NCBI GenBank assembly: GCA_902564025.1
Contig: CACEZK010000007.1
Location: forward strand, 1 to 55,304
DNA length: 55,304 nucleotides
Direction: 5' to 3'
Origin: an uncultured Pelagibacteraceae bacterium
GTDB lineage: Bacteria; Pseudomonadota; Alphaproteobacteria; Pelagibacterales; AG-422-B15
Shown here: positions 21,777 to 26,500 of the stretch, piece by piece
Layout: each line of letters opens with the position of its first letter
Position numbering within the stretch: the first letter of the stretch is position 1
Made by a program: the position numbers and the translations under genes
The notes under the pieces: generated by a model
Told to the model about the DNA's origin: nothing
Seen by the model: only the letters and a program-made list of their open reading frames with translations
Databases searched by the model: none

Positions 21777-22604
21777 TTATGAGCCTAATTCGTATCTAAT
21801 AAATTGATCTACAGAAATTTTACAATTATTTCTTTCTGCGCTTTGCTTTATGTAGTCTTCAACATTTAGCGATGGGTCAATTACAAATTTTTGGCCCAGT
21901 AATGTGTTTTCCTCAAAAAACTTTTTTAATTTACCCTCCAGCATTTTTTCAAGAATATTATCAGGTTTGCCGCTATCTTTTAGTTGTTGTTTTATTATTT
22001 CTTTTTCTGCGTTTACTAATTCATTGCTAAGGTCTTTTTCGGAAATTGATTTAGGATTCAAAGCTGCAATATGCATACATAGGTTTTTACCTATTTCAGA
22101 TACTTGATCACTATCAGTATTTAATTTTAAAAGAACGCCAATCTTGCCTAAGCCTTGACCTACACTGTTATGAACATAACTATGAATGTTTCCACTGAGA
22201 TGACTTGATCTTCTTAGAACTATATTTTCTCCAATCTTACCTACAGCGGCACTTATTAGCTCAGTAACATTTTCATTGCTAGCTAATGTATTATCTTTGT
22301 CGTCAATAGATATATCCAAAATCGAGTTCACAAGACTGTGAAATTCAGAATTTCTAGAGACAAAATCAGTCTCTGAATTTAATTCAATTATAGATGCTTT
22401 ATCTGACTGAACTTTGACTCCAATTAGACCTTCATTGGCGTCTCTACCAGATTTTTTCTCAGCTTTTGCAATTCCTTTTTCTCTTAATAATTTAAATGCT
22501 TGAGTAATGTCGCCTCCTGAATCAGATAAAGCTGACTTACACTCCATCATCCCTGCTCCAGACATTTTTCTTAATTCTTGAACTTCTTTTGCACTAACTG
22601 TCAT
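21777..22604 (-). CDS. tsf: Translation elongation factor Ts
   Basis: Nucleotide exchange factor for EF-Tu. The 275-residue protein begins [20 protein letters not shown], the typical N-terminal domain, with the [10 protein letters not shown] core motif and two dimerisation-type subdomains. I chose the ATG at 22602-22604, which overlaps the rpsB stop by 11 bases. The open frame reaches 18 codons further upstream, but that part is inside rpsB and is not family-like. Confidence 0.96.
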
Positions 22605-23400
22605 TCTTAGAGTCCTCAGGGTCAGAAATATTCTTATTATCAGAATTATCACTAACACTTTTCACATCAGGCTCAGAAATCTCTTCTTTATTATTAGAAT
22701 TGATTTCAAAATCAATTTCTTTAGTAGATGAATTGATTGTTTCTTTAATAAGTGAACAATATAAATCTATAGATCTACGTGAATCATCATTACCTGGTAT
22801 GGGGTAATCTATCTTATCTGGATCACAATTTGTATCAACAATTCCAACAATTGGTAAATTTAATAGATTTGCTTCAGAAACAGCTATGTGCTCTAGTTTA
22901 GTATCAATAATAAATACTAAGTCGGGAGATTTTTTCATTTCACTAATTCCACTTAATGACCTTACTAACTTTTCATATTGATTAGTAATTTTTAATATTT
23001 CTTTCTTTGTGAATTCATTGTCAGGATTAGATTTTAGTACTTCAAGTTCTTTCATTTTTTTGATCGATTTAGTAATTGTTGACCAATTGGTAAGCATTCC
23101 GCCTAACCACCTGTGATTCACATAAAACTGATTAGTTTCCTTTGCTAAAGTTGCAATTTTACCTGCTGCTTGTTTTTTCGTAGCTACAAATAAAATCTTT
23201 CCACCCTTTGAAACCACATCATCAATAACTTTAAGTGCTTCACTCAGCATCTGCACTGTATAGTTTAGATTTATTATATGAATATTTTCTTTTGTACTAT
23301 GAATGAACTTAAGCATTTTTGGATTCCATCTTTGCGATTTATGGCCAAAATGAACTCCAGCTTCAACAAGCTCTTTTAAATTAATATTTGGTATAGTCAT
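22594..23400 (-). CDS. rpsB: Small ribosomal subunit protein uS2
   Basis: Assembles late on the 30S head-body junction. The 268-residue protein has the family motifs [49 protein letters not shown] and the [12 protein letters not shown] segment. It carries a C-terminal tail of about 35-40 residues rich in Ser, Asn, Asp and Glu beyond the conserved core. The start is preceded by GGAG at 23407-23410 (minus), six bases before the ATG, which is part of a predicted regulatory pseudoknot. Confidence 0.97.
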
Positions 23401-23406
23401 TTTTTT

Positions 23407-23471
23407 CTCCGGTTATTCATCCACAGCAATTTGACCTGATTAAGGACCGGACAGCATTAGCTATCGCTGTG
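23407..23471 (-). promoter_or_regulatory. Structured rpsB leader with predicted pseudoknot over the Shine-Dalgarno
   Basis: Read on the minus strand, CACAGC (466-471 of 23 kb) pairs with GCTGTG (23422-23427), extendable by two inner pairs. CCGGT (23446-23450), inside that stem's loop, pairs with ACCGG (23409-23413), outside it. This is pseudoknot topology, and the second helix covers the GG of the GGAG ribosome-binding site. Small hairpins AGC-TAAT-GCT (23453-23462) and CCT-TAATC-AGG (23435-23445) fill the loop. Ribosomal protein leaders of this kind usually bind their own product; autoregulation by S2 is my inference. From memory, an rpsB leader RNA has been described in SAR11; I cannot confirm that this is the same fold. 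Confidence 0.7.
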
Positions 23472-23487
23472 TGATATTTTGAATGTA

Positions 23488-23517
23488 ATTATATTAAATA
23501 ATCAAGCTTTACAACAA
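23488..23517 (-). promoter_or_regulatory. Candidate rpsB promoter
   Basis: On the minus strand TATAAT (23488-23493) is a perfect -10 box, with TTGTTG (23512-23517) 18 bases upstream as the -35 box. Transcription would begin near 23481, giving a leader of about 80 bases that contains the whole predicted pseudoknot. The promoter directly follows the end of dnaE. Confidence 0.6.
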
Positions 23518-23518
23518 C

Positions 23519-26500
23519 TTATTCAACAAAATCTATTTTCATTACGCCGTTAAGGTTTTTCATCTTATCAATCATCTCTGAGGTAATATTGAATTCACCA
23601 GGAATCTTAAGTAATTGATTATTAATGATAATCTCTATTTTATTATGCCCTTTAACCCAATTTAATTTTGCTAACTCATCCTTTGAAAAGCTTCTATCGG
23701 CATAAATTTTAAGTGTATGATTGTTTAGTTTGTGATTTTTTCTGCTGTTAAAATTATTTGTATTATTAAGCTTTTCAACTTCTTCGAAACTAAATACTTT
23801 TTTGAGCTCCCCTCTTAAACTTCCATTTTGTGATGAAAAATCTACACCTAACACAAATGACTCACCTTCTAAAAGTAGCTCACGGTATTTTCTAAGATTA
23901 CTTTCAAATATAATTAGCTCAAAAATTGATGACAGGTCAGAAAAGTTTAAAAATGCATAATTATTACCCCTGGCTGATCTCTTTTCTTTTTTAGAAAGTA
24001 AGGTACCACCCAAAAGAAGATCTTTTTGATTATGCAGTTCTGAGTTTTCTTTGATTTCTGAATATTCTTTTAACATTAAAGATTTATAGTTTTTTTTGTG
24101 TGTCGACAAAGGGTGACCCGATAAATAAAAACCTAACATCTCATATTCTTTCATTAGTTTATAATTTGAATTCCACTCTTCTTCCTCTGTTAAATTAAAA
24201 CTTGATATGTTCATATCGCCAAACATATCTTTTTGATGATCTATGGAATTGCTATTTTTAGACTTATGATACTTTACAATTTCTGAGGCTTGATTAAATA
24301 CAGCCGCTCTACTTATGTTGAACTCGTCAAATGCTCCTACGCAAGATAGAGCTTCAATTGTTTTTTTGTTAATTACTGAGGTATTGTTTCTATTTATAAA
24401 ATCGTTGAGATCACGAAAATTACCGTTTTCGTTTCTTTCATTGTATAAATCCTTCATTGACTCAACACCCACATTTTTAATTGCTCCTAGCGCATATAAA
24501 ATTGAGTCATTATTTCTTAAAAAATTTGGTCCTGAGTAATTAACACTAGGTGGGGCTAATTTAATTTTTAGACGCATCAACTCTTGCTGAAAAATAGAAA
24601 TTTTATCTGTATTGTTAATATCTAATGACATGGAAGCTGCAAAAAACTCTATTGGATAATGAGTTTTTAGATAGGCTGTTTGAAATGCTATTACAGCATA
24701 TGCTGCAGCATGACTTTTATTAAAACCATAGTCAGCAAATTTAGATAATAATTCAAAAATAGTATGCGCTTCATTTGACGTTATATCTTTTTTTAAGCAA
24801 CCATTTATAAACCTTTGTTTTTGAGCGTTCATTTCCTTTTGTATTTTTTTTCCCATTGCTCTTCTTAGCAAATCTGCCTCACCATCTGAGTATCCTGATA
24901 ACTCTCTAGCTACCCCCATTACCTGTTCTTGATAAATTACGACTCCATAAGTTTCTTCTAATAAGTCTTCTAATAAAGGATGTATGTAGTCAGGTTTTTC
25001 TCTGCCATGCTTTCTTTCTATGTAGCTTGGTATATTAGCCATAGGACCAGGTCTATAAAGTGCAACAATAGCAATAATATCTTCAAATTTATCTGGTTGA
25101 AGCTGCTTAAGAGTATCCTTCATGCCCGCACTCTCTAACTGGAAAATGCCTGTTGTTTCACCAGTACTTAATAAATCATAAGTGTCTTGATCATTTAATT
25201 TAATGTTATCAATATTAAAATCAGGATTACTTAATTTTACCAATTTTGTACAATTATCAATTAGCGTTAGTGTCTTGAGACCTAAAAAATCAAATTTTAC
25301 TAAACCCGCATTTTCAACCCATTTCATATCAAATTGTGTTAGAAAAATATTTGAGTCTGGGTCACTGTATAGTGGGACATCTTTGAATACTTCCTCTTTT
25401 GAAATTACTACCCCAGCTGCATGAATTGATGCATGTCTTTTAAGACCTTCTAATTTTAGAGATATGTCTAATAACTTTGCAATTTTATCATCTTTATTTG
25501 CCTCCTCTTTTAATCGAGGCTCTTCATCAATGTATTGTTGCAATGTCATGGGTCTTGAAGGATCAAAAGGCATTAATTTACAAAGATAATCTACCTGACC
25601 ATATGGAATGCCAAGAACTCTACCTACATCTCTAATTACTGCGCGAGCTTGTAGTTTTCCAAAAGTAATTATCTGAGCAACATGGTTATTCCCATACTTT
25701 TGATGTACGTAATCGAGCACACGATCTCTATTATCACGACAAAAATCGATATCAAAATCAGGCAAAGAAACTCTCTCTGGATTTAAAAATCTCTCAAAAA
25801 TTAAACCAAATTTAATTGGATCTAGATCAGTAATTTTTAAACACCATGCAACCAAGGAACCTGCCCCAGACCCTCTTCCAGGACCAACCGGTATATCATT
25901 ATCTTTTGCCCATCTTATAAAATCCGAAACAATTAAAAAATATCCTTCATATTTCATATCTATAATTATTTTTAACTCTTTTTCTAATCTTTCCTCATAT
26001 TCCTTTTTTATGTTTAATTTTAAATTATTATCTATTTGTTCACTCATAAATTTTTGAGTGAGATTTTGCTCAAGGCCTTTATGAGATAGTTCTATTAATA
26101 ATTTTTTTTCTTGATTATCATCATTATCGTAAGATGGAAGTACTGGCATTTTTATTTTAGGTCTATGAGAGCACCTTTGCGCAATCTCAATTGTGTTAAA
26201 TAATGCTTCCGGAATATCTGAAAACAGTTCTTGCATTTCATTTTGAGACTTAAAATAGTGATTTTTTGACAACTTTTTTCTATCTTTTTGAGAAATAAAA
26301 AGTTTTTTTTCAATACACATTAGAGCATCATGTGCTTCAAAATGATCAGGTCCCTCAAAGTAAACATCGTTAGTTGCAACAACTGGAATATCATTATCGT
26401 ATGCCAAATTAAGGATAACTTCTTCATCAATTCTATAATCATTTCCTTCAATTCTCTGAATTTCTATGTAAAAATTATCAATAAATTCTTTTTTAAAGTC

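Follow-up and report, generated by a model that had tools for sequence, protein, structure and literature searches.

Is the short region between dnaE and rpsB in this alphaproteobacterium of the SAR11 order occupied by a structured leader RNA, and could a pseudoknot at the ribosome-binding site let ribosomal protein S2 control its own operon? The locus lies in the window, that is, the whole stretch of 55,304 nucleotides analysed here, which belongs to a 1.09 Mb draft genome that is 77 per cent complete. The S2 protein is 73–97 per cent identical to those of single-cell genomes that bear the label Pelagibacteraceae, among them AG-911-E02 and AG-422-B15. The gene order is dnaE (reading frame ending at 23519), 118 bases, rpsB, tsf, pyrH, frr and uppS, the names being taken from the translations.

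A preliminary description of the region had proposed two interlocking helices upstream of rpsB, and all the strings and positions that it quoted were found on the minus strand (Table 1). The GG of the GGAG sequence does fall inside the ACCGG arm, six bases 5' of the rpsB ATG. As the arms follow one another in the order a-b-a'-b' (CACAGC, CCGGU, GCUGUG, ACCGG), the helices interlock. The P2 and P3 hairpins and the outer extension of P1 with its bulged A had not been mentioned. Because C23450 also takes part in the pseudoknot helix, P2 would count 5 bp once the knot forms.

Table 1. Elements of the rpsB leader and its surroundings, in the direction of transcription
Feature	Positions	Strand	Basis or remark
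TATAAT, possible -10 box	23488-23493	minus	sequence; unproven
Outer P1 extension, 5' side, AUC	23473-23475	minus	C-G to A-U and G-U to U-A between families
P1, 5' arm, CACAGC	23466-23471	minus	sequence and covariation with 23422-23427
P2 hairpin, GAUAGC-UAAU-GCUGUC	23450-23465	minus	sequence; arms 23465-23460 / 23455-23450
Pseudoknot helix, J2-3 arm, CCGGU	23446-23450	minus	sequence, RF01815 alignment, phylum comparison
P3 short hairpin, CCU-UAAUC-AGG	23435-23445	minus	sequence
P1, 3' arm, GCUGUG	23422-23427	minus	sequence and covariation
Outer P1 extension, 3' side, GAU	23419-23421	minus	pairs with AUC
Pseudoknot helix, 3' arm, ACCGG (shares its GG with the Shine-Dalgarno sequence)	23409-23413	minus	sequence, phylum comparison
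Shine-Dalgarno sequence, GGAG	23407-23410	minus	followed by six A, then the rpsB ATG
rpsB (ribosomal protein S2)	22594-23400	minus	first gene 3' of the leader; ATG at 23400

Whether this fold is real is decided by comparison among genomes. In 36 distinct leaders of the SAR11 order, P1 and its outer extension are paired in 98.8 per cent of cells, with double-sided changes at six of the nine pairs. The covariation score of the whole structure is 0.330, as against 0.127 in shuffles, and all slid registers lie far below it. Direct parsing found all six P1 pairs formed in 45 of 45 distinct leaders, the versions present among relatives including CAUAAC/GUUAUG, CAGAGA/UCUCUG and CGAAGA/UCUUCG. The bulged A at 23472, between P1 and the outer extension, is invariant in the 36 leaders. 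The P2 stem is invariant in family f1, and shorter and covarying in f2, the second family of the order, represented by near-complete genomes of 1.2–1.5 Mb.

The compensatory changes that the preliminary description had called for in both helices are thus abundant across the order for CACAGC/GCTGTG. The CCGGT/ACCGG helix was present in all aligned leaders of the order but proved invariant there, the 36 distinct SAR11 leaders yielding no covariation, and for this reason the comparison was extended to the phylum, where the helix does covary. Most Alphaproteobacteria carry CCGGU/ACCGG, with UCGGU/ACCGA in L136 and CCGGU/ACUGG in L082. GGGGU/ACCCC occurs in many gammaproteobacteria; other leaders have CGGGU or UGGGU opposite ACCCG, and L173 has UGGGU/ACCCA; the pairing CGGGU/ACCCG is also met across Proteobacteria. 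When the arms were positioned manually, with GGU and AACC as anchors, all five core pairs formed in 16 of 16 distinct proteobacterial types, a small sample, and two pairs showed compensatory changes. Double-sided change was counted in 13 cells, compared with a shuffled mean of 4.7, these counts being of types and not of evolutionary events. Covariation therefore supports both helices, P1 within the order and the pseudoknot across the phylum, and confirms that the leader fold is real and conserved.

The element is an rpsB-motif leader RNA of the RF01815 type, a member of an already described class. This motif goes back to Meyer et al. (2009, PMC2704228), who found it between dnaE and rpsB in Candidatus Pelagibacter ubique; their description comprises P1, P2, P3 and a pseudoknot that joins J2-3 to the 3' extension of P1. 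The preliminary description was therefore correct in stating that SAR11 has a known rpsB leader. Its suggestion that the present variant is undescribed fails for the structure and may hold only for the fusion of the Shine-Dalgarno sequence with the pseudoknot arm, a point that the passage on the motif in PMC2704228 does not mention. The leader in the window shares with the motif, as presented in that passage, the dnaE-rpsB position in SAR11, P1, P2, a short P3 and the J2-3 pseudoknot, together with the strings UCCGGU and UAACCGG; its P2 is longer than the 3 bp reported there for Ca. P. ubique. It also departs from the class in carrying GGAUG after P1 in place of the usual GGNGG, and in its fused Shine-Dalgarno sequence, which in the Rfam consensus of RF01815 lies downstream of the arm. 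Almost all Alpha- and Gammaproteobacteria have GGNGG directly after P1, and GGAUG stands there in the genus of the window (23423-23418, minus strand); this change is matched by AUC/GAU in the outer P1 pairs.

In a search of 211 nt, RF01815 matched over its full model at 23397-23475 on the minus strand with 23.8 bits (E 0.005), below its gathering cut-off of 40 bits. RF00127 (t44) came second at 17.2 bits, below a gathering score of 44. At gathering level, an Rfam scan of the window returned tRNAs and nothing else, and 20 relative loci gave no match. Across the SAR11 order, 108 of 197 genomes have RF01815 matches at E ≤ 0.1 and 0 of 197 reach the gathering score; in a sample of 144 genomes from the class as a whole, 40 pass it. 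Rfam thus misses the leader here only because the SAR11 copies score below the cut-off, which hides it from standard annotation across an abundant marine order, the one from which the motif was originally reported. R1, a covariance model made from SAR11 leaders only, gave the same coordinates as RF01815 in other families of the class (for example G233:C21, G316:C2, G324:C1, G291:C17 and G310:C2) and matched one place only in the window's own genome. The covariation of P1, the J2-3 pseudoknot, the homology to other Alphaproteobacteria and the position directly upstream of rpsB all agree with RF01815. Since the score falls short while structure and homology fit, we assign the element to the published rpsB motif rather than count it as an Rfam-level match.

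Kinship extends to t44, the E. coli-type rpsB-tsf leader (RF00127), which precedes the same gene, has similar P1 ends (CACACA / GUGGAGG type) and forms an equivalent pseudoknot (GGGGU/ACCCC); it differs in the sequence of the pseudoknot, in a larger P3 region and in a separate Shine-Dalgarno sequence downstream. This kinship and the covariation bear out the proposal that rpsB is preceded by a structured leader whose pseudoknot lies at the ribosome-binding site. In SAM-II and SAM-V riboswitches, too, a pseudoknot lies close to the start codon. They would likewise hide the ribosome site by a start-codon pseudoknot, a comparison that draws in part on the account of SAM-V in PMC2704228, but their sequence, ligand and gene are all unrelated to those considered here, and Rfam gave no matches to either in the window. 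A search of viral contigs with a leader probe found nothing.

What the leader does is best approached through E. coli, where surplus S2, helped by S1, represses translation of rpsB-tsf via the leader, and where there is genetic evidence for S2 control through this homologous RNA; the mechanism is still regarded as unclear, given that the operator does not include the ribosome-binding site (review PMC10931766). The genome considered here encodes a long rpsA-like S1 protein (a match below the curated cut-off), which makes the E. coli arrangement of S2 with S1 possible. Taken together, membership of the rpsB-leader class and feedback by S2 appear highly probable. The feedback on rpsB-tsf would be translational. 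The transcript start would leave the whole fold within the mRNA, and free S2, possibly with S1 as in E. coli, would bind the fold and stabilize the pseudoknot. Formation of the pseudoknot would engage half of the GGAG, two bases otherwise available for pairing with the end of the 16S rRNA, and translation of rpsB-tsf would fall as the 30S subunit became unable to pair with this site. The 3' end of the 16S rRNA, CACCUCCUUU, is present in the genome (L178), so that the anti-Shine-Dalgarno sequence is intact. Because the pseudoknot must use two GGAG bases, direct occlusion is the simplest reading of the repressing step, and we put it forward as a plausible but tentative one.

In E. coli the ribosome-binding site is reported to lie outside the operator (PMC10931766), so that occlusion is not an established mode of action for these leaders. 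A reading that keeps the same class and S2 feedback would have repression proceed as in E. coli with the Shine-Dalgarno sequence not hidden, for instance by 30S trapping or by upstream binding of S2/S1, the overlap being a by-product of streamlining. The tails of other leaders favour it: in a tally resting on simple motifs (GGA or AGG 3' of the arm), with start codons chosen by frame, a separate Shine-Dalgarno sequence stands 3' of the arm (AACCGGAAAAGGAG..AUG) in 62 of 68 distinct tails outside SAR11, mostly from Alphaproteobacteria, and downstream in 21 of 21 gammaproteobacterial t44 tails. The distance from AACCGG to ATG, only 6–10 bases across the order, would moreover force an overlap, which may thus result merely from shortening of a leader whose conserved ACCGG arm lies near the start codon. 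Against this reading, all 18 leaders examined in the genus of the window retain the fused GGAG, and each of the 11 distinct tails there carries AACCGGAG and no other Shine-Dalgarno sequence, A-rich sequence filling the space up to the ATG. Five further distinct tails from Alphaproteobacteria (L070, L073, L078, L141 and L144) show this fusion as well, so that it is not peculiar to SAR11. Nor is the arrangement uniform within the order, as most f2 leaders have no GGAG at all; 12 of 13 f2 tails are without a separate Shine-Dalgarno sequence, as are most leaders of the Pelagibacter type. On balance, repression as in E. coli is a possibility to be reckoned with, if not a probable one.

Direct occlusion could have arisen as follows: the SAR11 leader may have lost the separate Shine-Dalgarno sequence retained by other Proteobacteria, the pseudoknot arm becoming the ribosome-binding site and an operator of unclear mechanism becoming a direct on/off occlusion switch. 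This scenario, too, is offered tentatively, as one that may be right. The fused Shine-Dalgarno sequence is in itself a modest feature of the lineage that makes the mechanism testable. In SAR11 the leader is minimal and its conserved pseudoknot has bases in common with the Shine-Dalgarno sequence, which makes it a simple system for asking whether formation of the pseudoknot is the repressed state.

A fold that is conserved but constitutive, setting the level of rpsB translation or the stability of the mRNA with no response to S2, would suit streamlined genomes that may have lost regulators. We consider it unlikely, as the bulged A and the GGU and AACC sequences are conserved beyond the needs of pairing and the genetic evidence from E. 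coli ties the homologous leader to S2 (PMC10931766).

Far less credible still is control by a switch to an alternative hairpin, in which ACAGC of P1 would pair with GCUGU of P2, or by translational coupling through a short upstream open reading frame at 23420-23397, even though both are present in the sequence of the window. In L010-L015, P1 has become CACAAC/GUUGUG with GCUGU retained in P2, so that covariation tracks P1; the alternative hairpin was rejected because relatives do not preserve its pairing. The reading frame counts seven codons (ATG AAT AAC CGG AGA AAA AAA TGA, minus strand), begins at the 3' end of P1 and has a stop that overlaps the rpsB ATG (ATGA). Relatives L005, L006, L008 and L010 have lost the frame or the stop; the reading frame looks accidental, and it was rejected as a coupler on the same ground of not being preserved in relatives.

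Judged from one sequence, the arrangement is moderately unusual and by itself only suggestive: an equivalent interlocked pair of 6 + 5 bp, with an arm of the second helix within the last 20 nt of the intergenic region, arose in 28 of 5000 dinucleotide shuffles of the 118 nt (about 0.6 per cent). Plain folding, a model that does not include the pseudoknot, gave z = -1.96. Chance pairing in AT-rich intergenic DNA, for which such a frequency is not negligible genome-wide, can nevertheless be dismissed almost entirely in view of the covariation of the helices and the RF01815 matches across the order.

The preliminary description had also placed a transcript start just ahead of the fold. The TATAAT box on which it relied exists but is unremarkable, as an equally good box occurred in 19 per cent of shuffles of this AT-rich stretch, which is not significant. 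Exact copies are confined to the nearest relatives, and a scan for consensus promoters detected neither a -35/-10 pair nor a terminator. The case for a promoter here is thus weak, and transcription may read through from dnaE.

Among the relatives, the region around the start codon varies in ways that deserve mention. In several of the relatives L006 and L010-L015 (L006, L010 and L011 inspected by eye), the ATG within GGAUG is in frame with rpsB with no intervening stop, and the S2 start could therefore be extended in these genomes, although no Shine-Dalgarno sequence supports it. One f2 genus (L024, L029, L034 and L035) has a separate Shine-Dalgarno sequence (AACCGGAAAGGAUAAAAUG) together with a much changed P1 (CAGAGAA/UUCUCUG), and offers a natural contrast to the fused form within the order.
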